Source: Saccharopolyspora rhizosphaerae
GTDB taxonomy: Bacteria; Actinomycetota; Actinomycetes; Mycobacteriales; Pseudonocardiaceae
Direction: 5' to 3'
NCBI RefSeq assembly: GCF_003931915.1
Contig: NZ_RSAA01000001.1
Span: 186,001 to 250,000, forward strand
Length of the DNA: 64,000 bases
Position 1 is the stretch's first letter. Each line of letters begins with the position of its first letter. Under the pieces are notes generated by a model. The model made no database searches. It saw only the letters and a list, made by a program, of their open reading frames with translations, and was not told the origin of the DNA. Positions 14,142 through 27,092 of this stretch are shown here, one piece after another. Both the position numbers and the translations under genes were made by a program.

Positions 14142-14183
14142 GGCGAGGGGCCGGACATCCCGTGAGATGTCCGGCCCCTCGCC
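14142..14183 (+). terminator. Hairpin terminator after the SPFH gene
   Basis: An 18-base perfect stem (14142-14159 with 14166-14183) with a six-base loop lies about 60 bases after the SPFH stop. There is no U-run. The rest of the gap to 14579 holds no recognisable gene apart from the second dyad at 14328-14379. Confidence 0.75.
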
Positions 14184-14327
14184 CTCGCAAGGGCGACACG
14201 GCCCACCCACGAGCGACGTGTCCCGGTCTGCCGCAACGGCGCGAACACCGCCCGCCGCAAGGCCTCCGGCCACGACTACGCCCCTCCCACGGCTGACCCG
14301 AGGCACCCGGAGGCCGCCTGCCTTCGA

Positions 14328-14379
14328 ACTTCTCGCGAAGTTCGACCCGGGACTTCGAGGGTCGAACTTCGCGAGAAGT
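14328..14379. repeat. Nested 21-base inverted repeat
   Basis: Two perfect 21-base arms (14328-14348 and 14359-14379) flank a 10-base loop. The left arm also contains its own dyad, CGAACTTC / GAAGTTCG around TCGC. The core TTCTCGCGAA resembles the CTTCGCGCGAA found in the loop of the hairpin at 38923-38974. The element lies between the convergent SPFH and PAS genes, so it may act as a second terminator or be a dispersed palindrome. Confidence 0.55.
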
Positions 14380-14579
14380 GGGAATCGTCGCCACCCGGAG
14401 CGGCGCTCTGAGCTGTGGGAACGGGTGTTCCTCGGGTCCGTCGGTCGTCCGTTGGGGGTGGTGGTGTCCCTCCCCGTGGGAGGCTTCAGCCTTGGGGGAG
14501 GGACGTGTCCCGGTGGCGGTGCCGGGTGGTCCGGCGGCTCCGGTAGGCGGTGATCAGCTCCGCTGGGTCGCGATGTCCG

Positions 14580-15135: not shown

Positions 15136-15810
15136 TCAGGCGACGGTGGGGTTCAGGTAGGAGCCTCCGGCGATGCCGAGGGCGTGGACGGTGCCCAGCA
15201 GGTGTTCGCGCAGCTGCTTCTTGGCCTGCTCGGCGTCGCCGTCGGAGAGGGTCTCGGCGAGCTGGGAGTGCTGGCGGGTGATGCGTTCGCGGGCCGAGTG
15301 GGTGCGGGCGGTGGAGGTGATGCGCATCTGCTTGTCGCGCAGCGTGTTGTAGAGGTCGGTGACCACCGGGTTGCCCGCGGCGCTGACCAGCGTGGCGTGG
15401 AAGCCGCGGTCGGCGACGTGCATCTCGGCGTCGGTGAGGTCGGCGCCGTCGCAGGCGGGGTGCGCGGCCAGTTCCCGTCCGACGGCGGCCATCGCCTCGG
15501 TGCCGTCGATGGCGAGCTTGTCGATGGCGAAGCTCTCCAGGGCCAGGCGGGCTTCGATCACGGCGCGGGCCTCGTCCGCGCTGACCGGTACGACGAGGGC
15601 GCCGCGCTTGGGGTAGAGCTTGAGGAAGCCCTCCGACTGCAGCCGCAGGAACGCCTCGCGGACGGGAGTGCGCGACATCTGCAGGGCGCCGGCCACTTCT
15701 CCTTCGCTGAGCAGTTCCCCGTCGGGGAAGCTGCCATCGAGGAGTCCGGTCTTGACGTGGTGGTACGCGCGGTCGGCTGCCGGCGTTTCGGGTGCTGTTG
15801 CGCTCGACAC
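15136..15810 (-). CDS. GntR-family regulator, FCD type
   Basis: This 224-residue repressor-type protein has an N-terminal winged helix (about 10-75; LLSEGEVAGALQMSRTPVREAFLRLQSEGFL) and an all-helical FCD ligand domain (about 85-215). His residues there could bind a metal (HVADRGFHATL, ITRQHSQL). The start is GTG. It is divergent from an MFS transporter, with a clear palindrome between them, so autoregulation and control of the transporter are likely. FCD ligands are usually small carboxylates. Which one is not predictable. Confidence 0.9.
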   Translation of the reverse strand: MSSATAPETPAADRAYHHVKTGLLDGSFPDGELLSEGEVAGALQMSRTPVREAFLRLQSEGFLKLYPKRGALVVPVSADEARAVIEARLALESFAIDKLAIDGTEAMAAVGRELAAHPACDGADLTDAEMHVADRGFHATLVSAAGNPVVTDLYNTLRDKQMRITSTARTHSARERITRQHSQLAETLSDGDAEQAKKQLREHLLGTVHALGIAGGSYLNPTVA

Positions 15811-15833
15811 GTGAGCATCGTACTTCCACCCCT

Positions 15834-15856
15834 CTTGTATCTAAGATAGATACAAG
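15834..15856. promoter_or_regulatory. Probable operator of the GntR/MFS pair
   Basis: CTTGTATCT (15834-15842) and AGATACAAG (15848-15856) are perfect arms around AAGAT. The AT-rich palindrome stands out from its GC-rich surroundings. It sits 24 bases from the GntR start and 28 bases from the MFS start. TTGTAT/ATACAA halves resemble the GT...AC pattern of GntR operators. Confidence 0.75.
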
Positions 15857-15883
15857 TTCTTCCATCACGGGGAGGGGGCGCAC

Positions 15884-17158
15884 GTGTCCACAGCAGTCGA
15901 AGCCGCGCCACCGGAGCACTCCGGTCAGCGGCAACGGAGCGCCGGCCGCACGGCCTGGCTGGTCTGGGGAGTGGGGGCGCTGTGCTACTGCGCGGCGCTG
16001 TTCCACCGCGCCGGGCTGGGCGTGGCCGCTCCGGGTGCCGTGGAGCGCTTCGACGCAGGTCCGGGCGTGCTGGCCCTGTTCTCAGCGCTGCAGCTCGGCG
16101 TCTACCTGGTGCTGCAGATCCCGGCGGGACTGCTGGCCGATCGGCTCGGCCCGCGCAAGGTCATCACCGGCGGCATGGTCGCCCTCGCGCTGGGTTCGGC
16201 GGTGTTCGCGTTGAGCGGGTCGATCGTCGGCGGCCTCACCGGGCGCATGCTCATCGGGTTCGGTGACGCGTTCATGTTCACCAACGTGCTGCGGCTTGCC
16301 GCGCACTGGTTTCCGCCGCAGCGCTACGGCAAGGTCGCCGCGCTGACCGGTCTGGCCGGTGGTCTGGGTCAGGTCATCGCGACGCTGCCGCTGAGCCTGT
16401 CGCTGCACTCGCTGGGCTGGGTGCCGACCTTCCTCGGCGCTGGGGCGCTGACGGCCGCGCTCTGCCTGGCGGCCGCGCTGGTCATCCGCGACCGGACTCC
16501 CGCCGCGCGGCAGGAGCAGGCCGAGCCGGTGAGCGAGCGGGTGCGCCAGAGCCTGCGGGTGGTGGTCGCCCAGCGGGGGACGAAGCACTCCTTCTGGACG
16601 CACTTCGTGCTGATGGCGCAGTTCGTTGCGGTCACCACGCTGTGGGGTGGCCCGTGGCTGAGCTCGGCGCAGGGGCACGGTCAGTCGGAGATCGGGTCGC
16701 TGCTGCTGGTCAGCGTGCTCGGGTTCATCGCGGGTTCGTGGTTCGCCGGGCAGTACGTTTCGGGGCGTGCGCGTCGCCGTGAGCGCTACACCTTCGGGTT
16801 GTCCGTGGTCGTCGTGGTCGTGTGGGCGGTCCTGGTCGGGTGGCCGGGTGTGCTGCCGCTGCCGGTGCTGGCGGTGGCCTTGGCCACGGTCGGTGTGGCC
16901 GGGGGTGCGGCGATGCTGGCCTTCGACGGTGCGCGGTTGGCCAACGCCGAGCACCGCTCGGGCACTGCCACGGGTGTGGTGAACATGGGTGGTTTCAGCG
17001 CGGCGGTGCTGATCCAGTTGCTGGTCGGTGCGGTGCTGGAGCTGGTGTCGGGGATGGATCCGGTGGTGGCGTACCGGTGGGCGTTCGCGCCGGTCGTGGC
17101 GCTGGTGGTGGTCGGCACGGCTGCGCAGTGGTGGCTGCGGGACCGCGCCCTGTGGTGA
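15884..17158 (+). CDS. Major facilitator superfamily transporter
   Basis: This 424-residue protein is predicted to have twelve hydrophobic segments and the MFS loop motif LADRLGPRKVITGG between helices 2 and 3. The N-terminal 25 residues are hydrophilic. The fold resembles anion/carboxylate-type transporters, but no substrate can be named. GTG at 15884 follows GGGGAGGGGG. The gene is divergent from the GntR regulator and 68 bases before an aldehyde dehydrogenase, so uptake and oxidation of one compound may be linked. Confidence 0.88.
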   Translation: MSTAVEAAPPEHSGQRQRSAGRTAWLVWGVGALCYCAALFHRAGLGVAAPGAVERFDAGPGVLALFSALQLGVYLVLQIPAGLLADRLGPRKVITGGMVALALGSAVFALSGSIVGGLTGRMLIGFGDAFMFTNVLRLAAHWFPPQRYGKVAALTGLAGGLGQVIATLPLSLSLHSLGWVPTFLGAGALTAALCLAAALVIRDRTPAARQEQAEPVSERVRQSLRVVVAQRGTKHSFWTHFVLMAQFVAVTTLWGGPWLSSAQGHGQSEIGSLLLVSVLGFIAGSWFAGQYVSGRARRRERYTFGLSVVVVVVWAVLVGWPGVLPLPVLAVALATVGVAGGAAMLAFDGARLANAEHRSGTATGVVNMGGFSAAVLIQLLVGAVLELVSGMDPVVAYRWAFAPVVALVVVGTAAQWWLRDRALW

Positions 17159-17226
17159 GCGCGCGGGGTTAGCCTCGGGTTCGGTGGCGGGCCAACGGCG
17201 GCCGGCCCGGGCTCGGAGGTCGTGCT

Positions 17227-18657
17227 GTGACGGTGTGGGAACTGCGCAACCTGGTGGGCGGCAAGTCGGTGTCCACGGTGGCGGGTGGGACGTTGCCGCT
17301 GGTGGATCCCAGCACCGGTGAGGAGTTCGGAACGGCGCCGCTGACGCGGTGGAGCGATGTCGATGCGGTGATGCCGGTGGCGGCCGCGGCCTTCGAGTTG
17401 TGGTCGCAGACCACGCCGCGGGAGCGGCAGGAGGCGTTGCTGGGGCTGGCCGATGCGGTGGCCGAGCGTGTTGAGGAGCTGGTGCGGGCGGAGTGCCGGT
17501 GCACGGGCAAGCCGTTCGAGGTGGTGCGTGGCAGGGAGTTGCCGATGGCGGTGGACCTGCTGCGCTTCTACGCCGGTGCGGCGCGGGCGGAGGGGGCCAC
17601 GGCGGGTGGTGAGTACCTGCCGGGGCACACCTCGTTCGCGCGGCGTGAGCCGATCGGGGTGTGCGCGGCGGTGACGTCGTGGACGCATCCGTTGTTGCAG
17701 GCGGCGGCGAAGATCGCTCCGGCGTTGGCGGCGGGCAACACGGTGGTGTTGAAGCCGGCGGAGACGACGCCGATCAGCGCGGTGCTGGTGGGTGAGTTGG
17801 CGGGGGAGTTCGTGCCACCGGGTGTGCTCAACGTGGTGTGCGGTGATCGCGACAGCGGTCGGGCGATGGTGGCTCACGGCGTGCCGGGGATGTTCTCGAT
17901 CACCGGGACGGTGCGGTCGGGGATGGAGGTGGCGGGGTCGGCGGCTGCGGACTTGAAGCGGGCGCACTTGCAGTTGGGGGGCAAGGCGCCGGCGGTGGTG
18001 TTCGCGGATGCGGATCTGGAGCGTGCGGCTGAGGGGATCGCGGCGGCGGCGTTCGGGAACGCGGGGCAGAGTTGCACGGCGGCCAGCCGGGTGCTGGTGG
18101 CTGCGGAGGTGCACGAGGAGTTGGTGGGCCGGTTGGTGGAGTGGGCCGGTCGGTTGCGGCCGGGGCCGCCGCAGGACGCGGATGCGGCGTTCGGTCCGCT
18201 CAACAGCTTGGGGCAGTTGGAGCTGGTGCTGGAGCGGTTGGAGCGGTTGCCGTCGCACGCGCGGGTCGTGGCGGGGGGTCGGCGGCGGGGTGAGCGTGGG
18301 TTCTTCTTGGAGGCCACGGTAGTCGACGGTGCGCTGCAGGACGACGAGTTGGTGCAGCACGAGGTCTTGGGTCCGTTGGTGTCGGTGCAGTCCTTCGGGG
18401 GTGAGGACGAGGCGGTGGCGTTGGCCAACGGTGTGCGCTACGGGTTGACCGCGAGCGTGTGGACGCGTGATCACGGTCGGGCGATGCGGATGTCGCGGCG
18501 GTTGCAGGCGGGGACGGTGTGGATCAACACCCACGATTGCCTGGTGGCCGAGATGCCGCATTCGGGGTTCAAGCATTCGGCGTCGGCGCGGGATTTCGGT
18601 GATGACGGGTTGGCCGATTACACCCGCGTCAAGCACGTGATGTCGGCGTGGGAGTAG
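17227..18657 (+). CDS. Aldehyde dehydrogenase family protein with altered active site
   Basis: This 476-residue ALDH-fold protein is closest in layout to gamma-aminobutyraldehyde dehydrogenases. The catalytic Cys is present (C283 in AGQSCTA). The general-base Glu of the usual ELGGK is Gln here (Q249 in LQLGGKAP), and the oxyanion-hole Asn of WNFP/WNYP is Thr (T153 in WTHP). The Q249-C283 spacing of 34 is canonical, so alignment is secure. Canonical activity may be weak, or the protein may serve another role. The GTG start lies 68 bases after the MFS gene; the stop is one base from the end of the convergent amidase. Confidence 0.85.
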   Translation: MTVWELRNLVGGKSVSTVAGGTLPLVDPSTGEEFGTAPLTRWSDVDAVMPVAAAAFELWSQTTPRERQEALLGLADAVAERVEELVRAECRCTGKPFEVVRGRELPMAVDLLRFYAGAARAEGATAGGEYLPGHTSFARREPIGVCAAVTSWTHPLLQAAAKIAPALAAGNTVVLKPAETTPISAVLVGELAGEFVPPGVLNVVCGDRDSGRAMVAHGVPGMFSITGTVRSGMEVAGSAAADLKRAHLQLGGKAPAVVFADADLERAAEGIAAAAFGNAGQSCTAASRVLVAAEVHEELVGRLVEWAGRLRPGPPQDADAAFGPLNSLGQLELVLERLERLPSHARVVAGGRRRGERGFFLEATVVDGALQDDELVQHEVLGPLVSVQSFGGEDEAVALANGVRYGLTASVWTRDHGRAMRMSRRLQAGTVWINTHDCLVAEMPHSGFKHSASARDFGDDGLADYTRVKHVMSAWE

Positions 18658-18658
18658 G

Positions 18659-20059
18659 TCAGCGGGGTGTGGTGGCGCGGGGCCAGGGGTGTGCTTGTTC
18701 GTAGGCGTGGGCGGCGCGGAGGATGGTGGCGTCGGCGTGGCGGGGGGCGATGATCTGCAGGCCGATGGGAAGGCCGTCGTCGGTGTGGCCGCAGGGGATG
18801 CTGGCGGCGGGTTGCTGGGTCATGTTGAAGGGGTAGGTGAACGGGGTCCAGCTGGTCCAGCGGTGGCCGTCGGTGGGTGATTCGCGGCCGGCTTCGAAGG
18901 CGGCGATGGGGACGGTGGGCGTCAGCAGCAGGTCGTAGGTCTGGTGGAAGGCGCCGGTGCGTTGGCCGAGCTTCATGCGGGTGTTGGTGGCTTCGAGGTA
19001 GTCCTGGGCGGAGTAGGTGAGGCCTTGGCGGCAGATCTCGGCGAGGCCGGGGTCGAGGAGTGCGCGTTGGTCGTCGGTGAGGTGTTCGGTGGCTTTGGCG
19101 GCGCCGGCGGCCCACAGGACGTGGAAGTCGTCGACGGGGTCGGTGATGCCGGGGTCGGCGTGTTCGACGTGGGCGCCGAGGTCGGCGAAGGTGCGGGCGG
19201 CGTGCTCGAGGGCGCGGCTGACCTGGGGGTCGACGGGGGTGCCGAACCCGAGGTCGCTGCTGACGGCGATGCGCATGCCGGCGACGCCGCCGCCGAGGTG
19301 GTCGAGGAAGGAGTCGGGTGGTGGTGCCAGCACTGACCAGTCGCGCACGTCGGGGCGGGCGAGCACGTCGAGCATGAGGGCGGTGTCGGTGACGGTGGTG
19401 GCCATCGGCCCGGCGTGGGAGAGGGTGCCGAAGGGGCTGGCCGGGTAGAGGGGGATGCGGCCGTAGGTGGGTTTGATGGTGGCGATGCCGCAGAAGGAGG
19501 CGGGGATGCGCACGGATCCGCCGCCGTCGGAGCCCAGGGCCAGTGGGCCCATGCCGGCGGCCACGGCTGCGGCGGCGCCGCCGGAGGAGCCGCCTGCGGT
19601 GCGGGTGGGGTTGTGCGGGTTTCGGGTGGTGCCGTGGCGGGGGCTGTCGGTGACGCCCTTCCAGGCGAGTTCGGGTGTGGTGGTTTTTCCTACCAGCACG
19701 GCGTTTTCGGCGCGCAGGTGGGCGACGGCGGGGGCGTCTTCGGACCAGGGCTGGTCGGGGTCGGTGGTGCGGGAGCCGCGCAGGGTGGGCCAGCCGCGGG
19801 TGAGGAAGAGGTCCTTGATGGAGGTGGGCACGCCGTCGAGGCGGCCGGCGGGTTGGCCGCGGTGCCAACGGTCTTCCGAGGCGCGGGCGGCGTGCAGGGC
19901 GGCGTCGGGGTCGAGCAGGCAGTAGGCGTTGAGGGTTGTGTCGTGGTCGTCGATGCGTTTCAGGACGGCTTGGGTCGCCTCGACCGGGGAGAGGGTTCCG
20001 GCGGCGTAGGCGGCCAGCAGTTCGGTGGCGGGCAGCTCGGCGGGCTCGGTGGTGGCCAT
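18659..20059 (-). CDS. Amidase signature family hydrolase
   Basis: This 466-residue amidase has the Ser-cisSer-Lys triad: K82 in SIKDLF, S158 in GGSSGG and S182 in GSDGGGSVRIP. Such enzymes hydrolyse amides to carboxylates and ammonia; the substrate range is broad. The ATG at 20059 has GGAGA upstream; a longer open frame upstream runs into the next gene and is ignored. It is 29 bases downstream of the D-2-hydroxyacid dehydrogenase on the same strand, so the two form an operon under operator 1. Confidence 0.9.
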   Translation of the reverse strand: MATTEPAELPATELLAAYAAGTLSPVEATQAVLKRIDDHDTTLNAYCLLDPDAALHAARASEDRWHRGQPAGRLDGVPTSIKDLFLTRGWPTLRGSRTTDPDQPWSEDAPAVAHLRAENAVLVGKTTTPELAWKGVTDSPRHGTTRNPHNPTRTAGGSSGGAAAAVAAGMGPLALGSDGGGSVRIPASFCGIATIKPTYGRIPLYPASPFGTLSHAGPMATTVTDTALMLDVLARPDVRDWSVLAPPPDSFLDHLGGGVAGMRIAVSSDLGFGTPVDPQVSRALEHAARTFADLGAHVEHADPGITDPVDDFHVLWAAGAAKATEHLTDDQRALLDPGLAEICRQGLTYSAQDYLEATNTRMKLGQRTGAFHQTYDLLLTPTVPIAAFEAGRESPTDGHRWTSWTPFTYPFNMTQQPAASIPCGHTDDGLPIGLQIIAPRHADATILRAAHAYEQAHPWPRATTPR

Positions 20060-20088
20060 GGCGTCTCCGTGGTGTGGCGAACTGCGGG

Positions 20089-21057
20089 TCAGCTGCTGGG
20101 GTAGCCGCGGTGCTTGTCGACGAGGTTGTGCAGGTCGGTTCCTCCGGTGAAGGCGCGCAGGTTTCTCAGGAACAGCGCGACGAGTTCGTCGGTCCAGCCG
20201 ACGGTGTCGCCGGACATGTGGGGGGAGATGAGGACGTGGGGCATCTCCCAGAGGGGTGAGTCGGTGGGCAGGGGTTCGGTGTCGAAGACGTCGAGGGCGG
20301 CGCCGGCGATCTGGTGCTGTCGCAGGGCTTCGACGAGGGCGGGTTGGTCGACGTGTTCGCCGCGGCCGACGTTGATCAGGCGTGCGGTGGGGCGCATCGC
20401 GGTGAGGACGTCGGTGTTGATGAGTCCGTGGGTTTGGGGGGTCAGGGGTGCGGCGACGACGAGGTAGTCGTAGTCGCCTGCGATGCGGGCGAGGTCGTCG
20501 GAGGCGTGGATGTCGCCGAAGTCGGGATCGCCGGTGCGGGCGGTGCGGCCGGCGCCGGCGACGTCGAGTCCGGCGGCGGTGAGCTGGCGGGCGATGGCGC
20601 GGCCGATGGGTCCGGTTCCCACGACGAGGGCGGTCCTGCCGGTGAGGCGTTCGGTGACGCGGTGCTTCCACTGCTTGGCGTCTTGCAGCCGCAGGGTGGT
20701 GTGCATGTCCTTGGCGAAGGTGAGCACGGTTCCGAGGACGTATTCGGCGATGGGTTGGTCGAACACGCCGCGGGAGTTGGTCAGGGCGACGTCGGAGTCG
20801 CGCAGTTCGGGGAACAGCAGGCGGTCCACTCCGGCGCTGGCGGCGTGGATCCAGCGGAGCTTGTCGGCGTGCGGCCAGGCGTCGGCGATGGCTTGGGAGC
20901 GGAAGGCCCACACGAACAGCGCGTCGGCGCCGGGCAGGGCTTGGGGGAGTTGCTCGCCGGTCGCGTAGCGCAGGTCGGCGTGGTCGGCGATGCGGGCCAT
21001 CTCGTCGGGTGCGTCGCCGTCGTGGAGGACGACGACGGTGGGGCGGGAGTGGATCAT
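20089..21057 (-). CDS. D-2-hydroxyacid dehydrogenase
   Basis: This 322-residue NAD(P)-dependent D-2-hydroxyacid dehydrogenase has the nucleotide motif VVGTGPIGRAIA, the Arg in NVGRGEHVD, the Glu in FDTEPLP and the catalytic His in ISPHMSG. The family reduces 2-oxoacids or oxidises D-2-hydroxyacids. The ATG at 21057 (IHSRPTVVVL) has AAGGT before it; upstream ATG or TTG starts would cross the operator. It heads a two-gene minus-strand operon with the amidase and is divergent from the DUF3830 gene. Confidence 0.88.
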   Translation of the reverse strand: MIHSRPTVVVLHDGDAPDEMARIADHADLRYATGEQLPQALPGADALFVWAFRSQAIADAWPHADKLRWIHAASAGVDRLLFPELRDSDVALTNSRGVFDQPIAEYVLGTVLTFAKDMHTTLRLQDAKQWKHRVTERLTGRTALVVGTGPIGRAIARQLTAAGLDVAGAGRTARTGDPDFGDIHASDDLARIAGDYDYLVVAAPLTPQTHGLINTDVLTAMRPTARLINVGRGEHVDQPALVEALRQHQIAGAALDVFDTEPLPTDSPLWEMPHVLISPHMSGDTVGWTDELVALFLRNLRAFTGGTDLHNLVDKHRGYPSS

Positions 21058-21161
21058 GTGGATGACCTTAGGGCCGGAGGTGGTGCGGGCGTAGGTCTCC
21101 CACGCCGGTAACAAGTGTGTTTCCCCAGTCCTGGGCGAGAAAACGACCCTCGGTGGAAGCA

Positions 21162-21201
21162 TTGACACGCTAAGAAGCGTTCGTAGGATTGTCAACAATC
21201 C
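21162..21201 (+). promoter_or_regulatory. Promoter with GntR operator 1
   Basis: TTGACA (21162-21167), a 16-base spacer and TAGGAT (21184-21189) form a good promoter for the DUF3830 gene. GGATTGT CA ACAATCC (21186-21201) is a perfect palindrome that overlaps the -10 and the start-site region, a classic repressor position. Near-identical cores recur at 22595-22606 and 25795-25808. The divergent dehydrogenase gene starts 105 bases from the -35 and may share this control. Confidence 0.8.
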
Positions 21202-21266
21202 ACGAGCGACGGGCAGGGCCGGTCAGCGGGGAGATCACCCAACACCACTGCGAGGAATGGATCACG

Positions 21267-21761
21267 ATGCCCAGGTACCTGTCGATCACGCTGGAGAAGC
21301 GCGGTGTGTCGTGCGTGGCGGAGCTGCTGGAGAAGGACGCTCCCCGCACCTGCGAGGCGGTGTGGAACGCGCTGCCGCAGGTCGGGCCGGTGCACCACGC
21401 CAAGTACGCCCGCAACGAGGTCTACACGATGGTGCCGCGGTTCGCCGTGGACGAGCCGGGCCAGGAGAACCCGACGGTCACTCCCATTCCGGGTGATGTC
21501 GTGTACTTCTCCTTCCCGGGCGGGATGTTGGACCGGGATTTCAAGCAGGACAAGGGGATTGAGGACCTGCCGGGGGTGATCGACCTGGCGATCTTCTACG
21601 GCCGCAACAACCTGCTGCTCAACGGCGACGTGGGCTGGGTTCCCGGCAACGTCTACGCCACGATCGTGGAGGGCTTGGCCGAGATGGCCGAGGCCTGCAA
21701 CGACGTGTGGCGTTCCGGCAGCGTGGGCGAAACGCTGCGCTACGACCGCATCGAGCGTTAG
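21267..21761 (+). CDS. DUF3830-like protein (cyclophilin-like fold)
   Basis: This 164-residue protein contains the segments CEAVWNALP, HHAKYARNEVYTMVP and GDVVYFSFP, which I recognise from DUF3830, a family with a predicted cyclophilin-like fold and no known reaction. ATG at 21267 follows GAGGAATGG; a TTG at 21189 would place the operator inside the gene. It is 12 bases before the first racemase-like gene. I recall such proteins near amidases and Asp/Glu racemase relatives, which is the case here. A role as a ligand-binding or isomerase-like partner is inference. Confidence 0.65.
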   Translation: MPRYLSITLEKRGVSCVAELLEKDAPRTCEAVWNALPQVGPVHHAKYARNEVYTMVPRFAVDEPGQENPTVTPIPGDVVYFSFPGGMLDRDFKQDKGIEDLPGVIDLAIFYGRNNLLLNGDVGWVPGNVYATIVEGLAEMAEACNDVWRSGSVGETLRYDRIER

Positions 21762-21773
21762 GCGAGGCCGCCG

Positions 21774-22544
21774 ATGGCACCTGAAGACTTCCTCGGCGCG
21801 GTGCCCGGGCCCCGGCCGCAGCGCGGGATCGGGGTGATCGCCCCGTTCGACCTGGCGCTGGATCGTGAGCTGTGGCGGTGGGCTCCGGCTGAGGTCTCGC
21901 TGTACCTGACGCGCACGGCGTTCGTGCCGGTGCCGGTCAGCGTGGAGCAGGCCAACCGGGTCTCCGACGAGGCCTCCGTGCACGCGGCGACCCGTGACCT
22001 GCTGGTGCCCGAGCCGGAGGTGGTGGCTTACGCGTGCACCTCGGGCAGTTTCGTCGACGGTGCCGGTGGGCAGCGGCGGCTGGTGGAGGTCATGCGCGAG
22101 GCCGGTGCGCCGGCGGCGGTGACGACCTCGGGGGCGCTGGTGTCGGCGCTGGAGGTGCTCGGGGTGGGCAGCGTGGCGATCGCGACGCCCTACGTCGTGA
22201 GCATCACCGACCGGTTGGTGTCGTACCTGGGCGAGCACGGCATCGCGGTGGTCTCCAGCGTCGGTCTGGGGCTGGAGGGCCAGATCTGGAAGACCTGCTA
22301 CGCCGATGTGGTGGAGATCGTGCGCGCGGCTGATCGCCCGGAGGCCGAGGCGATGTTCATCTCGTGCACGAACCTGCCCACCTACGACTTGATCGGCCCG
22401 CTGGAGCAGGAGTTGGGCAAGCCGGTGCTCACGGCCAACCAGGTGACCATCTGGGCTGCGTTGCGCGAGATGGGCCTGTCGGCGGTGGGTGCCGAGCAGC
22501 GGTTGATGCAGGCGGTGGACGTGCCGGCTGCGTGCGCCCGCTGA
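21774..22544 (+). CDS. Asp/Glu racemase superfamily protein, maleate isomerase-like
   Basis: This 256-residue protein has two cysteines in the positions used by the superfamily: ACTSGSF near residue 86 and SCTNLPTYD near residue 200. Maleate isomerases and related racemases use such a pair; the second motif (SCTNL) is especially like maleate isomerase and arylmalonate decarboxylase. The gene is 12 bases after the DUF3830 gene and in the same direction as the second homologue. Substrate candidates are small dicarboxylates or alpha-substituted acids. Confidence 0.82.
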   Translation: MAPEDFLGAVPGPRPQRGIGVIAPFDLALDRELWRWAPAEVSLYLTRTAFVPVPVSVEQANRVSDEASVHAATRDLLVPEPEVVAYACTSGSFVDGAGGQRRLVEVMREAGAPAAVTTSGALVSALEVLGVGSVAIATPYVVSITDRLVSYLGEHGIAVVSSVGLGLEGQIWKTCYADVVEIVRAADRPEAEAMFISCTNLPTYDLIGPLEQELGKPVLTANQVTIWAALREMGLSAVGAEQRLMQAVDVPAACAR

Positions 22545-22590
22545 CGTAAAGATGACATCACGGACGTTCTGGTCGCCGTGCACCCTGCGG

Positions 22591-22606
22591 TAACATTGTC
22601 GACAAT
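22591..22606 (+). promoter_or_regulatory. GntR operator 2 with -10-like sequence
   Basis: ATTGTCGACAAT (22595-22606) is a perfect 12-base palindrome and shares ATTGTC.ACAAT with operators 1 and 3. TAACAT at 22591-22596 is a plausible -10; the -35 is weak. It lies 73 bases before the second racemase-like gene, so it would control that gene and the regulator downstream (autoregulation). Confidence 0.75.
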
Positions 22607-22679
22607 CCGACACCCACGGTGGTGGGGTTGCCCAGGGTCGTGGCCGCTGGACGTGACAAGCACAGGATGGAGCTCCCCG

Positions 22680-23414
22680 GTGCCGCACACCGCAGGAATT
22701 CTGTATCCCGGCCACAGCGCCGAAGACGACTACCCGGTCCTGGAGAACCTGCTCGGCGAGGACGTGCGCCTGCCGCTGGTGCACACGTTGATGCGCGAGG
22801 ACGCCCACCGGGTGGACGCGCTGCTGGACGTGGGCTCGGAGCAGGTGCTGGCCGAGGGCGCTCGCGCGCTGGGCGCGGTGGACTCGGTGATCTGGGCGTG
22901 CACCTCCGGCAGTTTCGTGTTCGGCCAGGCCGGGGCGCGCGAGCAGGTCGAGAAGCTGCAGGCGGTGACCGGCGTGCCCACCTCGAGCACCTCGTTCGCG
23001 TTCGTGCACGCCGCGGCGCGGCTGGGGTTGCGGCGGGTCGCGGTGGCCGCGACCTACCCGGCCGATGTGGCTGAGCGCTTCGTGGAGTTCCTGCAGGGGT
23101 ATGACCTGGAGGTGGTGCGGTTGTCCAGCCGGGGCATCGTCACCGCCGCCGAGGTCGGCACGCTCGGTCGGGAGGCGGTGCTGGAGTTCGCCGCGGCCAA
23201 CGACGACGAGCGGGCCGAGGCGGTGCTGATGCCCGACACGGCCCTGCACACCGCCGCGTGGTTGGAGGAGCTCGAACAGCGGGTGGGCAAACCGGTGCTC
23301 ACCGCCAACCAGGTCAGCGCCTGGGAGGCGCTGCGGCTGGCCGGTGCCGACCGGCCGCGTGCGGGGTTGGGAACGCTGTTCGCGGACCAGAACGGGCCGG
23401 TCACCTCGGGGTGA
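22680..23414 (+). CDS. Asp/Glu racemase superfamily protein lacking the second Cys
   Basis: This 244-residue paralogue of the preceding gene keeps the first Cys motif (WACTSGSF). In place of the second (SCTNL) it has PDTALHTAAW, so the second Cys is replaced by Asp. LTANQVSAWEALR near the end matches the family. One-Cys members of the superfamily can act as decarboxylases, or the protein may be a partner subunit of its neighbour. GTG at 22680 has GGATGGAG upstream; an upstream GTG at 22578 would place the operator inside the gene. It is 16 bases before the GntR gene. Confidence 0.8.
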   Translation: MPHTAGILYPGHSAEDDYPVLENLLGEDVRLPLVHTLMREDAHRVDALLDVGSEQVLAEGARALGAVDSVIWACTSGSFVFGQAGAREQVEKLQAVTGVPTSSTSFAFVHAAARLGLRRVAVAATYPADVAERFVEFLQGYDLEVVRLSSRGIVTAAEVGTLGREAVLEFAAANDDERAEAVLMPDTALHTAAWLEELEQRVGKPVLTANQVSAWEALRLAGADRPRAGLGTLFADQNGPVTSG

Positions 23415-23430
23415 CCGCCAGGACGAGGAG

Positions 23431-24135
23431 ATGGTGAGCGCAGTGCTCGGGACCGAGGAGCAGGACCAGCAGCCCGGTGAGTTGGAGCCGGTGCAGCGGA
23501 AGTCGACTGCAGCGATCGTGGCCGATCAGTTGCGCGCGGCGATCATGTACGGGTCGCTTCCTCCGGGCTCACAGCTGGGGGAGGCGGAGTTGGCGGCCCG
23601 GCTGGGGGTCAGCCGGGGGCCGTTGCGGGAGGCGATGCAGCGGCTGGTGGCCGAGGGGTTGTTGCGCAGTGAGCCGCACCGCGGGTTGTTCGTGATGGAT
23701 CTGGACACCGAGGACGTCGCCGACATCTACTTGGCGCGGTTGGCGGTGGAGCGGGCTGCCTGCGAGCAGATCGTGCGTCACCACCGGGTGGAGGCGGTGG
23801 CGGAGTTGACCGCGGCGCAGTCGCGGATGGTGGCCGCGGCCGGCAAGGGTGATGGCATCGAGCTGGCTGATGCCGATCAGGAGTTCCACGAGACGCTGGT
23901 GCGCGTCTCCGGTAGCGCGCGGTTGCAGCGCATGGCGCAGACGTTGCTGGTGGAGAAGCGGATGTGCTTGACGGCGTTGCAGGACAAGTACCACGCCGAC
24001 GTGCAGGCCCTGGTCGATGAGCACAAGGGGCTGGTCGATGCGATCGAGGCCGGGGATGAGGCGTTGTTGCTCTCGCGGCTGGAGGCGCACATGAACGACG
24101 CGATGGAGCGGCTCAACGGCTCGATGGCCCAGTAG
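23431..24135 (+). CDS. GntR-family regulator, FCD type (local regulon repressor)
   Basis: This 234-residue FCD-type GntR protein has a winged helix (about 25-85; QLGEAELAARLGVSRGPLREAMQRLVAEGLL) and an FCD domain with the metal/ligand pattern ADADQEFHETLV and a later DEHKGLVDAI. It is the only regulator gene among three copies of one palindrome and is the likely repressor. ATG at 23431 abuts GAGGAG; GTG at 23434 would give slightly better spacing. The gene ends at a strong terminator. The ligand is probably a substrate or intermediate of the neighbouring enzymes. Confidence 0.88.
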   Translation: MVSAVLGTEEQDQQPGELEPVQRKSTAAIVADQLRAAIMYGSLPPGSQLGEAELAARLGVSRGPLREAMQRLVAEGLLRSEPHRGLFVMDLDTEDVADIYLARLAVERAACEQIVRHHRVEAVAELTAAQSRMVAAAGKGDGIELADADQEFHETLVRVSGSARLQRMAQTLLVEKRMCLTALQDKYHADVQALVDEHKGLVDAIEAGDEALLLSRLEAHMNDAMERLNGSMAQ

Positions 24136-24159
24136 CGCCCCTGGGTGGGTGAAGAAAGA

Positions 24160-24198
24160 AGCAGCGGGGTGCCGGTCGAGGACCGGCACCCCGCTGCT
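24160..24198. terminator. Terminator between gntR and the convergent dehydrogenase
   Basis: An 18-base perfect stem (24160-24177 with 24181-24198) with the loop GAG lies between the two gene ends. An A-rich stretch (GAAGAAAGAA) on the left gives a U-rich tail for transcripts coming from the minus strand. It can serve both directions. Confidence 0.85.
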
Positions 24199-24213
24199 CG
24201 TGCGGTGGGTGGC

Positions 24214-25692
24214 TCAGACGCCGCCGATGGAGACGTACTTGGTCTCCAGGAACTCGTCGATGCCCAGCTTGCCGCCTTCGCGGCCCAGCCCGGAGGCCTT
24301 GACCCCGCCGAAGGGGGCGGCCGGGTTGGACACGATGCCCTGGTTGAGCCCGACCATGCCGGTCTCGAGGGCTTCGCTGACGCGCAGTCCGCGCTGGAGG
24401 TTCTGCGTGAACAGGTAGCTGACCAGGCCGTACTCGGTGTTGTTGGCCTTGGCGATGGCTTCGCGTTCGTCGGTGAAGGTGGTGATCGGGGCGACCGGCC
24501 CGAAGATCTCCTCGGCGGTCATGCGCGCCTGCTCGGGCACGCCGGTGAGCACGGTGGGGGTGTAGAAGTAGCCGTCGCTGCCGTGGCGGTCGCCGCCGGT
24601 GACGACCTGCGCGCCTTGGGCGACCGCGTCGGAGACCAGGTCGGTGACCTTGCCCAGCTGCTTGCCGTCGATGAGCGGACCGACCTGGATCTCGTCGGAG
24701 ACGCCGCGGCCGATGGTCAGCGAGGACATGCGGTCGGCGAGCTTGTCGGCGAAGGCCTGGGCGATGTCGGCGTGGACGTAGAAGCGGTTGGCGGCGGTGC
24801 AGGCTTCGCCGATGTTGCGCATCTTGGCCTGCATGGCGCCGTCGACCGCCGCGTCGAGGTCGGCATCGTCGAAGACCAGGAACGGGGCGTTGCCGCCGAG
24901 TTCGAGGGAGACCTTGAGGACCTGCTCGGCGGATTGTTCGATGAGCTTGCGGCCCACGGCGGTGGAGCCGGTGAACGACAGCTTGCGGGCGCGCGGGTCG
25001 CGGATCATCGGTTCCATCACCGCACCGGCATCGGCGGCGGTGACGACGTTGACCACCCCGTCGGGCAGGCCGGCTTCGCGCAGGATGTCGGCCAGCGCCA
25101 GCATCGACAGCGGTGTCTGGTGGGCGGGTTTGATCACCGAGGTGCAGCCGGCGGCGATGGCGGGGCCGATCTTGCGGGTGCCCATCGCCATGGGGAAGTT
25201 CCACGGGGTGATCAGCAGTGCCGGGCCCACGGGCTGGCGGGTGATCAGGAAGCGTCCGGAGCCGTTGGGCGGCACGGCGTAGTCGCCGCTGATGCGCACG
25301 GCTTCTTCGGCGAACCAGCGGAAGAACTCCGCGGCGTAGGTGACTTCGCCGCGTGCCTCGGGCAGGGGTTTGCCCATCTCCAGGGTCATCAGCAGCGCGA
25401 GGTCTTCGCGGCGTTCGACGATGATCTCGTAGGCGCGGCGCAAGACCTCGCCGCGTTCGCGCGGCGGGTGGGTGGCCCAGTCGGTTTGGGCGTCGTGGGC
25501 GGCGGCCAGCGCGGCCCGGGCGTCGTCGGGGGTGGCGTCGGCGACCTGGCACAGGGTGGTGCCGGTGGCGGGGTCTTCGACGGCGAAGGTGCGTTCGCCG
25601 GTGGCGTCGCGCCACTTGCCCGCGATGAGCAGTTGTTTGGGGGCGGCCTCGACGACGGTCGCCTCGCGGGGGTGCGTTGGGGTGGTGGTCAT
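24214..25692 (-). CDS. Succinate-semialdehyde dehydrogenase-type aldehyde dehydrogenase
   Basis: This 492-residue canonical ALDH has N165 in ITPWNFP, E264 in LELGGN and C298 in GEACTA all present. The closest match in layout is NAD(P)-dependent succinate-semialdehyde dehydrogenase (GabD type). It would oxidise an omega-aldehyde acid, such as the product of the divergent aminotransferase. The ATG at 25692 has AGGAGG upstream; the frame stays open to 25785 without a better start. Operator 3 lies between the two divergent starts. Confidence 0.88.
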   Translation of the reverse strand: MTTTPTHPREATVVEAAPKQLLIAGKWRDATGERTFAVEDPATGTTLCQVADATPDDARAALAAAHDAQTDWATHPPRERGEVLRRAYEIIVERREDLALLMTLEMGKPLPEARGEVTYAAEFFRWFAEEAVRISGDYAVPPNGSGRFLITRQPVGPALLITPWNFPMAMGTRKIGPAIAAGCTSVIKPAHQTPLSMLALADILREAGLPDGVVNVVTAADAGAVMEPMIRDPRARKLSFTGSTAVGRKLIEQSAEQVLKVSLELGGNAPFLVFDDADLDAAVDGAMQAKMRNIGEACTAANRFYVHADIAQAFADKLADRMSSLTIGRGVSDEIQVGPLIDGKQLGKVTDLVSDAVAQGAQVVTGGDRHGSDGYFYTPTVLTGVPEQARMTAEEIFGPVAPITTFTDEREAIAKANNTEYGLVSYLFTQNLQRGLRVSEALETGMVGLNQGIVSNPAAPFGGVKASGLGREGGKLGIDEFLETKYVSIGGV

Positions 25693-25794
25693 CGCTGCGC
25701 GAACCCTCCTGGGTGTCGTCGGTTCTGCTGAATACCAACCTAGACCGCTTCGGTGGTGGACACCGGGCGCTGCTGATGGTTGCATGACTGCCTA

Positions 25795-25808
25795 GATTGT
25801 CAACAATC
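25795..25808. promoter_or_regulatory. GntR operator 3
   Basis: GATTGTCAACAATC is a perfect 14-base palindrome and equals the core of operator 1. TAGATT (25793-25798) overlaps it as a possible -10 for the aminotransferase gene. The site is 27 bases before that start and about 100 bases before the divergent dehydrogenase. Confidence 0.8.
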
Positions 25809-25835
25809 CTACATTCCGCACGCTTGGAGTCGATC

Positions 25836-27092
25836 ATGACGGAGCTCTCCCCGGCGCTCAAGCAGGCGACCCCGGTGCTGGCCGCTCGCGGCGAAGGGGT
25901 CTACCTCTACGACGAAGACGACCGGCGCTACCTGGACTTCACCGCCGGCATCGGCGTCACCAGCACCGGGCACTGCCACCCCCGCGTGGTCGAGGCCGCC
26001 CAGCGGCAGGTGGGCACGCTCATCCACGGCCAGTACACGACGGTCATGCACAAGCCGTTGCTGCAGCTGACCGAACGTCTCGGCGACGTGCTGCCCTCCG
26101 GGCTCGACCGCGTCTTCTACGTCAACTCTGGTAGTGAAGCGGTCGAAGCGTCCGTGCGGTTGGCGCGACACGCAACCGGACGGCCCAACATCATCGCCCT
26201 GGAGGGTGGTTTCCACGGCCGCACCATGGGCGCGGCCGCTCTGACCACCTCCGGGGTGAAGGTGCGCGCCGGGATCGGGCCGATGATGGGCGGGGTCGTC
26301 TTCACGCCCTTCCCCGAGCCCTACCGCTGGCAGTGCTCCACCGAGCAAGCCGTGCAGCGGGCACTGGCGGAGTTCGACCAGCTGCTGCTAACCCAGTCCT
26401 CGCCGCGCGACACCGCCGCGATCATCGTCGAGCCCGTGCTCGGCGAAGGCGGCTACATCCCCGCGCCCCCGCAGTTCCTGGCCGGGCTGCGCGAACGCGC
26501 CGATGCCCACGGCTTCCTGCTCATCGTTGACGAGGTGCAGACCGGCGTGGGGCGCACCGGCAGGTTCTGGGGCCACGACCACGCCGGCATCCGCCCCGAC
26601 GTCCTCATCACCGCCAAGGGCCTGGCCAGCGGCTTCCCCCTCTCGGCCATCGCCGCGAGCGAGGAGCTGATGAGCAAGGCCTGGCCGGGATCGCAAGGCG
26701 GCACCTACGGCGGCAACGCCGTGGCCGCCGCCGCGGCCTTGGCCACCCTCGACGTGGTCGAGCAGGAGGGCCTGGTGGCCAACGCCGCAGAGCAGGGCGC
26801 GCGGCTGGCCGAAGGGCTGCGCAAGGTCGCCGCCGACCACCCCGTCATCGGCGACGTGCGCGGCCTGGGCCTGATGCTGGGCAACGAGTTCACCACCCCG
26901 GAGGGCACCCCGGACGCGGCCACCGCCGCCCGGGCCCACGCGGCCGCGGCCGAGGCCGGGCTGCTGCTGCTGACCTGCGGGCCGGCGGGCAACGTGGTGC
27001 GCATGATCCCGCCGCTGATCGTCACCACCGAGCAGGTCGACGCCGCGATCGAACTGTGGGCCACCGCGGTGCGCTCGGCCGTGGCAAGCTAG
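25836..27092 (+). CDS. Class III aminotransferase, 4-aminobutyrate type
   Basis: This 418-residue PLP enzyme of the class III (omega-amino acid) group has K261 in LITAKGLASG as the Schiff-base Lys, Asp in IVDEVQTGVGRTG and the phosphate-loop NSGSEAVE. Class III members transfer omega-amino groups from 4-aminobutyrate, ornithine, beta-alanine and related compounds. Pairing with a SSADH-like enzyme favours a GABA-type step, but the substrate remains open. ATG at 25836 has GGAG at 7 bases; a TTG at 25797 would place the operator inside the gene. Confidence 0.88.
   Translation: MTELSPALKQATPVLAARGEGVYLYDEDDRRYLDFTAGIGVTSTGHCHPRVVEAAQRQVGTLIHGQYTTVMHKPLLQLTERLGDVLPSGLDRVFYVNSGSEAVEASVRLARHATGRPNIIALEGGFHGRTMGAAALTTSGVKVRAGIGPMMGGVVFTPFPEPYRWQCSTEQAVQRALAEFDQLLLTQSSPRDTAAIIVEPVLGEGGYIPAPPQFLAGLRERADAHGFLLIVDEVQTGVGRTGRFWGHDHAGIRPDVLITAKGLASGFPLSAIAASEELMSKAWPGSQGGTYGGNAVAAAAALATLDVVEQEGLVANAAEQGARLAEGLRKVAADHPVIGDVRGLGLMLGNEFTTPEGTPDAATAARAHAAAAEAGLLLLTCGPAGNVVRMIPPLIVTTEQVDAAIELWATAVRSAVAS

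Follow-up and report, generated by a model that had tools for sequence, protein, structure and literature searches.

The question raised by the eight genes at 18659-27092 of the stretch of DNA analysed here (hereafter the window, 64,000 nucleotides of contig NZ_RSAA01000001.1 of Saccharopolyspora rhizosphaerae) is which compound they serve to degrade. An earlier note, made from the sequence alone, had described them as a catabolic regulon under a GntR-type regulator, with an unidentified substrate and no one-to-one match among described pathways. The last point agrees with our literature search, in which ectoine or Amdase-type terms were combined with amidase, racemase, GntR and actinobacteria, and in which neither such a pathway nor a paper on this regulon was found, most subscription papers being outside its reach. 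The note gave no substrate; comparative evidence now points to ectoine and/or 5-hydroxyectoine, which are the most likely substrates because of the operator and the links to Ehu and EutD-like genes in relatives. It is probable, in our view, that the eight genes are the central part of a regulon under GntR control, and that this regulon degrades one or both of these compounds to aspartate-level products without EutD/DoeA or EutE/DoeB. Repression, the substrate, the direction of the pathway and each individual reaction are what we infer. The features of the locus, in window positions, are the following.

18659..20059, minus strand: amidase-signature amidase, 466 amino acids (PF01425, 339.8 bits; NCBIfam PRK06169, 740.5 bits, cut-off 506).
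20089..21057, minus strand: D-2-hydroxyacid dehydrogenase (HADH), 322 amino acids (PF02826, 2-Hacid_dh, 170.1 bits; nearest NCBIfam model NF041369, 236 bits, under its cut-off of 400).
21188..21199, no strand: predicted GntR operator ATTGTCAACAAT at the divergent HADH-amidase / DUF3830-AmdA promoter.
21267..21761, plus strand: DUF3830 protein, 164 amino acids (PF12903, 213.7 bits).
21774..22544, plus strand: AmdA, a protein of the Amdase/EutA superfamily, 256 amino acids (PF17645, 93.1 bits; EutA model 113.2 bits, cut-off 318).
22595..22606, no strand: predicted GntR operator ATTGTCGACAAT upstream of AmdB-GntR.
22680..23414, plus strand: AmdB, second Amdase-superfamily protein, 244 amino acids, start codon approximate (PF17645, 92 bits).
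23431..24135, plus strand: GntR-family regulator of the FCD subfamily (PF00392 and PF07729).
24214..25692, minus strand: succinate-semialdehyde-dehydrogenase-like (SSADH-like) aldehyde dehydrogenase, 492 amino acids (Aldedh, 550 bits; TIGR01780, 589 bits, cut-off 646).
25796..25807, no strand: predicted GntR operator ATTGTCAACAAT at the divergent SSADH / AT3 promoter.
25836..27092, plus strand: class III aminotransferase (AT3), 418 amino acids (PF00202, Aminotran_3, 421 bits).

Gene families were assigned by Pfam, by which all eight families that the note had named at 18659-27092 are present; finer models were taken from NCBIfam with their curated cut-offs, and solved relatives from the PDB. 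Among the matches listed for the eight proteins only that of the amidase passes a curated NCBIfam cut-off, and the family concerned, PRK06169, bears the bare name 'amidase'.

The genes have one operator type in common, as had been claimed, in the form of three copies of ATTGTNNACAAT at their promoters. When the window was searched with up to two mismatches, six strand matches were obtained, all at 21188, 22595 and 25796, compared with a mean of 0.44 and a maximum of 2 in 100 shuffles. Genome-wide the pattern ATTGTYNACAAT matches five places, and the reversed control pattern none. If adjacent genes on the same strand are co-transcribed, all eight genes would be under operator control, and the FCD-type GntR protein is presumed to be the repressor of the regulon. 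The regulon is wider than the eight genes to which it had been assigned, since the operator also stands elsewhere in the genome about 240 base pairs (bp) before a gene for a Glu/Leu/Phe/Val-type (ELFV, glutamate-type) dehydrogenase (C30:143782). The fifth genomic site, ATTGTTCACAAT (C32:453848, L057/L141), was not counted as a regulon site; it is asymmetric and lies 46 bp before a PrpF-family gene, beyond which there is an RraA-like gene. With its conserved flank it recurs in other Saccharopolyspora genomes (three compared), and it is probably the site of a related, different GntR protein.

To follow the operator and the genes in relatives, two sets of loci were used. For the named loci, the best 80 of 554 were taken; they were recruited by closeness of their DUF3830 and are thus biased to complete modules, and several of them end at contig ends. 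The phylum sample consists of 396 genomes, of which 43 have DUF3830 and 19 its full-length kind (bit score >180); in the co-occurrence counts across the phylum, 'module' means full-length DUF3830. Gene counts across loci rest on tblastn, and 'Streptomyces-like' is an inferred label. In Saccharopolyspora the operator is found in 12/12 loci, with 36 sites at the same three promoters as in the window, and it occurs in 67 of the other 68 named loci, at 142 sites, and in 13 of the 19 phylum-sample loci (30 sites), or 92/99 overall. Nearly always the sites of these 99 loci are in the promoter of a module gene, an ELFV gene or a transport gene, and eight control palindromes of similar composition gave totals of 0, 3 and 1 in the three groups, in the same order. 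By subtraction, six phylum-sample loci are without an exact site, namely four Streptomyces-like ones, in which the GntR of the module was not found by tblastn, and L046 and L048, which have sites with one mismatch. In most module loci the GntR gene is accompanied by the operator. In L037, and likewise in L154, which is a locus without DUF3830, Ehu is followed by an IclR-type gene. The operators of the window, the genome-wide pattern search and the recurrence in loci of relatives thus all support the shared regulation of the set.

Comparison of DUF3830 neighbourhoods in other actinobacteria, which the note had suggested, revealed that the gene set is a conserved module. In the 80 named loci AmdA was detected in 79, AmdB in 79, GntR in 76, the amidase in 75, HADH in 74, AT3 in 63 and SSADH in 32. 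The AT3 matches at 32-33% in L043-L046 are paralogues and were not counted. The order and orientation of the genes differ between families, and this speaks for selection acting on the set. Close relatives have nearly the same protein, the DUF3830 of the window being 96% identical to the S. flava homologue and 95% to that of S. endophytica; S. rosea (L069) also bears the module. In one genome (G205) only AT3, DUF3830, ELFV, AmdA and Ehu pieces were seen, on two short contigs (L048, L148).

One indication of the substrate comes from transport genes beside the module in relatives. EhuBCDA is the ABC importer of ectoine and hydroxyectoine, the EhuB of S. meliloti having a Kd of 1.6 uM for ectoine (PMC5924519), and the operon that adjoins DUF3830 in L037, the single operon scored with all four Ehu models, passes all four curated cut-offs (EhuB 277.1 bits, cut-off 190.9; EhuC 223, cut-off 196.95; EhuD 279.2, cut-off 205.2; EhuA 357.1, cut-off 345.4). 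Family f5 has four genomes in which EhuBCDA is the direct neighbour of DUF3830 (L035, L037, L040, L041), and Ehu lies beside or among module genes also in G226 (L049), G205 (L048/L148) and G008 (L147), which belong to three other families. Four families are thus represented, and the adjacency is seen in seven of the 19 genomes of the phylum sample that have full-length DUF3830; EhuB is over its cut-off in all seven. Across the 396 genomes, EhuB over cut-off (32 genomes) and full-length DUF3830 (19 genomes) share 12, which gives a Fisher p of 3e-10 that ignores relatedness. Another zwitterion, or a cyclic amide or imide of hydantoin- or pyroglutamate-like kind, might be taken up by an Ehu-like importer of different specificity, and two observations are in line with this: the EhuB of L037 shares only 37-39% identity with two rhizobial EhuB, and other plasmid relatives of AmdA are beside or near hydantoinase or oxoprolinase genes. 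Such a substrate nevertheless appears unlikely, given that the four Ehu subunits pass equivalog cut-offs and that no hydantoinase or oxoprolinase is among the 30 module and Ehu-locus proteins, a part of the neighbours, that were scanned with Pfam.

The operator itself leads to the same transport genes. Of the 28 EhuB places in the genus, six, in 6 of 22 Saccharopolyspora genomes, have an exact copy of ATTGTCAACAAT at a distance of 203-228 bp in front of the EhuB match, and one more place has a copy with one mismatch; in G008 an operator site is found 96 bp before EhuB. The two-strand sites outside the module that were fetched from Saccharopolyspora (n=16) are situated before an ELFV dehydrogenase in 13 cases and before an Ehu operon in three, and the search's own loci give a further case of each kind (ELFV in L190, Ehu in L188). 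An ELFV homologue neighbours the module in L043-L046 and L048 (49% identity in one compared pair), and the operator before it is exact in L043-L045 and has one mismatch in L046. Other carriers adjoin the module as well, of the BCCT type in L044-L046 and ProP-like in L034, L036, L038 and L043. Transporters observed at a single locus, namely a GABA-permease-like gene in Pseudonocardia, a KdgT-like one in Streptomonospora and Mem_trans in Bacillota (L129), were dropped as substrate clues because recurrence was not observed; GabP is in one of the 80 named loci, and the KdgT-like and Mem_trans genes were each seen once.

In the known pathway ectoine is converted by ring hydrolysis to N-acetyl-diaminobutyrate, by deacetylation to diaminobutyrate, by transamination to aspartate semialdehyde and by oxidation to aspartate, and in some of its clusters hdhD, a hydroxyacid dehydrogenase of unknown role, has been recorded (PMC5924519). 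The ring hydrolase EutD/DoeA was not detected in the window genome, whose best match reaches 73.9 bits where the cut-off is 613, nor does this genome have a match to the deacetylase EutE/DoeB at E 1e-20. EutD is over its cut-off in 6 of the 396 genomes, none of them with full-length DUF3830, and 12 genomes exceed 400 bits, of which only G008 belongs to the 19 with full-length DUF3830; at E 1e-60 an EutD match is absent in the other 18. EhuB is associated with both EutD and full-length DUF3830 across the 396 genomes, the p values ignoring relatedness. Two further loci link the set to the known pathway. One is G298, in which HADH, AT3, SSADH, an EutD-like and an M20 hydrolase occur together with the operator before AT3, and in which the locus has no amidase, AmdA, AmdB or DUF3830. 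The other is a stretch of a Sinorhizobium plasmid whose AmdA homologue, at 40% identity, is the best found on plasmids; ehu genes occur there together with genes for an aldehyde dehydrogenase, a diaminobutyrate transaminase and an ELFV dehydrogenase that is just 28% identical to the one here. In several genomes of family f17 Ehu stands beside EutD, and the three of these that were searched for EutB have a gene like it, below cut-off, near Ehu; in G226 of the same family, which has no EutD, Ehu is beside the amidase module.

The last two enzymes of the set would suit the last steps of this pathway. AT3 shares 65% identity with its counterpart in an EutD-like cluster of another actinobacterial genome, and the SSADH-like enzyme is 49% identical to the SSADH-type gene of the Leisingera eut cluster, a value not set against SSADH relatives in general. 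Both enzymes would also fit a route for 4-aminobutyrate (GABA) or another omega-amino acid, in which the amidase frees a 4-aminobutyrate-like acid from an amide, AT3 and SSADH act as GabT and GabD, and the remaining genes deal with a side product. AT3 is the best match of the window genome to the GABA transaminase model (372.3 bits, the next being 253 bits), the SSADH model gives 589.3 bits, and in one Pseudonocardia AT3 is followed by the GABA-permease-like gene mentioned above (513 bits, cut-off 678). We consider this route quite unlikely. Neither enzyme reaches the cut-off of its model (506.65 and 646.35 bits), Ehu, ProP-like and BCCT carriers are the ones found repeatedly with the module or operator, and the presence of AmdA, AmdB and DUF3830 and the EutD-like link would be left unexplained.

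For the degradation of ectoine the following scheme may be put forward. Ectoine would be imported by Ehu, ProP-like or BCCT carriers, as encoded in relatives, and some combination of amidase, AmdA, AmdB and DUF3830 would open the ring and remove the acetyl group, these four being the candidates because EutD and EutE were not found in the window genome. In the version that we favour, the amidase would deacetylate N-acetyl-diaminobutyrate, the ring would be opened by AmdB or DUF3830, and AmdA would play an EutA-like part for the 5-hydroxyl form. AT3 could then convert diaminobutyrate to aspartate semialdehyde, as a diaminobutyrate:2-oxoglutarate transaminase in the role of Atf/DoeD, and the SSADH-like enzyme aspartate semialdehyde to aspartate in the role of Ssd/DoeC. 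The ELFV dehydrogenase, under the same operator, might recycle glutamate to 2-oxoglutarate, and HADH may act on a 2-oxo or 2-hydroxy intermediate. Nothing specific was found behind the order in the earlier note, with amide hydrolysis followed by isomerisation, oxidation and transamination, and the order of the known ectoine pathway suits AT3 and the SSADH-like enzyme better. It is tempting to go further and to speculate, with somewhat less than even confidence, that this is a separate actinobacterial pathway for ectoine or 5-hydroxyectoine, in which a new enzyme takes the place of the M24-type EutD in opening the cyclic amidine (most simply the Cys-Asp protein AmdB, see below, or else DUF3830), and in which the amidase then acts as deacetylase.

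The two proteins which the note had called maleate-isomerase-like are the only PF17645 matches of the window genome and both pass the Amdase cut-off of 25.9 bits (93.1 and 92 bits). They belong to the superfamily of arylmalonate decarboxylase, maleate isomerase and EutA, and the description is loosely right, though AmdB lacks the second catalytic cysteine. Both catalytic positions are cysteine in 92 of 92 AmdA sequences, as they are in the aligned EutA (three) and maleate-isomerase-like sequences. In AmdB the second position is occupied by Asp in 97 of 99 sequences and by Gly in two, and the first by Cys in 91 and by Ser in eight; the Ser cases include four of the five listed AmdB from Streptomyces-like loci without DUF3830. 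Only stop-free matches over 80% or more of the query entered these counts, and the window itself is represented once in each set through L052. An annotated-hypothetical Nitratireductor protein shares the Asp pattern of AmdB, and we know of no characterised superfamily member with such a Cys-Asp pair. In a tree of 28 of the 92 AmdA, 31 of the 99 AmdB and 10 other sequences, AmdA and AmdB form two separate, well-supported groups, with the three EutA on the side of AmdA and outside it, and with long branches among the references. For DUF3830 the single significant solved relative is PDB 3kop, an 'uncharacterized protein' (E 8.9e-65), and invariant residues of DUF3830 lie in the stretches HxKYARNE, TPIPGD and FYxRNN (11 aligned sequences). 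A literature search found no paper on DUF3830, with subscription papers largely outside it, and an earlier description is possible. Two other stretches with DUF3830 were observed: three tandem matches with lower scores (82, 60 and 58 bits) at G177:C23:24402-25787, and a distant DUF3830 (29% identity) on the Mesorhizobium plasmid pB1-1-8 (L001, 7709-15620) with genes for a GntR protein, a TIGR04076 protein, an aldo/keto reductase and a branched-chain-amino-acid-type ABC transporter as neighbours, which is perhaps another uncharacterised DUF3830 pathway.

Several observations weigh against the assignment to ectoines. As to transport and regulation, 7 of the 19 full-length DUF3830 genomes lack an EhuB over cut-off, and 21 of the 28 EhuB places in the genus have no operator (up to two mismatches, 600 bp before the match), among them the only EhuB operon of the window genome (C7); the site at C30:143782 lies between divergent genes, of which only the ELFV side was examined. 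As to the enzymes, neither AmdA (113 bits) nor AmdB (102 bits) reaches the EutA cut-off of 318, and both groups stand apart from the three EutA sequences. AT3 is just 31% identical to the aminotransferase of the canonical Leisingera cluster, which is of the same Pfam family, and this enzyme may have a GABA role. The proposed ring-opening enzymes are candidates only, and the roles of all the enzymes on ectoines are drawn from sequence comparison. The absence of a deacetylase rests on the EutE model, generic M20 hydrolases of the window genome not having been searched. No genome of the 23 searched is over the cut-off for EutE (402.7) or EutB (413), and this is weak evidence because three EutD-type actinobacterial genomes fail too, including on EutB, for which they have a gene near Ehu at 335-368 bits; the EutE model is insensitive in this phylum. 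Moreover, six Streptomyces-like loci (L152-L157) have AmdB (6/6) and HADH (4/6) next to EhuBCDA but contain none of DUF3830, AmdA and amidase, which shows that the full set is dispensable at times or that the rest is elsewhere. In one of these loci (L152) a luciferase-like monooxygenase gene adjoins AmdB, as it does in L040, which has a full module.

A further point of this kind is provided by G008, which has two loci with the same operator type. One contains HADH, an EutD-like M24 hydrolase (416 bits; cut-off 613) with an operator site about 30 bp before its gene, an M20 hydrolase, DUF3830 and AT3; the other contains amidase, GntR, AmdB, AmdA and Ehu. The EutD-like hydrolase and the amidase set coexist here, and the set hence need not replace EutD. 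Strict replacement was dropped as an explanation: among the genomes with EhuB, EutD is found in 1 of 12 with and 8 of 20 without full-length DUF3830 (p 0.06), and G008 has both. The coexistence favours a narrower form of our proposal, by which amidase, AmdA, AmdB, DUF3830 and HADH are specific for 5-hydroxyectoine or another modified ectoine and plain ectoine is handled by other enzymes. It is also in line with this that use of 5-hydroxyectoine in Ruegeria needs EutABC, of which EutA is a superfamily relative (PMC8739950, PMC5924519), that 5-hydroxyectoine was first discovered in a Streptomyces (PMC5924519), and that the window genome carries ectoine synthase. Such a restriction would, on the other hand, leave the 18 of 19 full-length DUF3830 genomes that lack an EutD match with no known route for ectoine, and we hold it as a tentative possibility only, retaining the degradation of ectoine and/or 5-hydroxyectoine as the preferred reading.

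Upstream of the eight genes, a separate small unit occupies 15136-18657 and consists of a second GntR gene on the minus strand and of an MFS carrier and an aminobutyraldehyde-dehydrogenase-like aldehyde dehydrogenase gene on the plus strand. No operator of the type described was found at these genes (~15136-18657), and they were left out of the regulon for this reason. The idea of a GABA or polyamine amide as substrate, which stemmed from the aminobutyraldehyde-dehydrogenase-like gene (17227-18657), was likewise abandoned, as the gene has no operator and is in 13 of the 80 named loci; the MFS gene is in 12. Pantothenate, in which a D-2-hydroxyacid is joined to beta-alanine by an amide bond, was another early thought for the substrate. 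A perfect palindrome, CTTGTATCTA-N3-TAGATACAAG, is present at 15834-15856 between the second GntR gene and the MFS gene. Outside this unit there is an inverted repeat at 14323-14384, with arms of 26 nucleotides that are 92% complementary and 10 nucleotides between them, and a perfect 18-nucleotide inverted repeat at 14142-14183, which could be a terminator.

According to a 2018 review, ectoine consumers are restricted to Proteobacteria (PMC5924519), and a 2026 paper has extended them by EutD homology and terms the Gram-positive clusters provisional (PMC13188858). If our proposal is true, a widespread EutD-independent regulon of actinobacteria would alter the view of who recycles a common bacterial osmolyte, DUF3830 would obtain a first function, and an unusual Cys-Asp enzyme of the racemase superfamily would obtain a role. 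Many ectoine producers would also be consumers, since 13 of the 19 full-length DUF3830 genomes carry ectoine synthase, and this could matter for actinomycetes as ectoine producers. With a regulator and an operator named, the hypothesis is directly testable.

The systems to which the set can be compared share parts of it. GABA catabolism by gabT-gabD uses the same families of aminotransferase and SSADH-like dehydrogenase, while here both enzymes are below the curated cut-offs and have other partners and other operator-linked transporters. Within the superfamily of Amdase, maleate isomerase and EutA (PF17645), AmdA has the usual two cysteines, and AmdB differs by Asp in place of the second. The EutD-based clusters of Gram-positive bacteria and haloarchaea (PMC13188858) are alike in the predicted use of ectoine by Actinomycetota, in Ehu, BCCT and other transporters and in having an aminotransferase and an aldehyde dehydrogenase; they were found by EutD/EutB homology, most Bacillota examined there have a PucR regulator, and the terms 'amidase', 'racemase' and 'DUF' are absent from the main text of that paper, its figures and supplements being outside the term search. 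The closest resemblance is to the eut/doe clusters of Pseudomonadota (ehuABCD-eutABCDE-asnC-ssd-atf; doeABCD), with which the set shares a regulator of the GntR superfamily, a protein of the EutA superfamily, a class III aminotransferase, an SSADH-type dehydrogenase, the Ehu importer (here in relatives) and, with some of them, a hydroxyacid dehydrogenase. It differs in that its regulator is an FCD-type GntR instead of the MocR-type EnuR, in that the window genome has no matches to EutD/DoeA or EutE/DoeB and no EutB over cut-off (EutC was not searched), and in having additionally two Amdase paralogues, an amidase and DUF3830. Relative to the known eut/doe route, the set most likely represents a variant in which ring opening and deacetylation would be carried out by other candidate enzymes.

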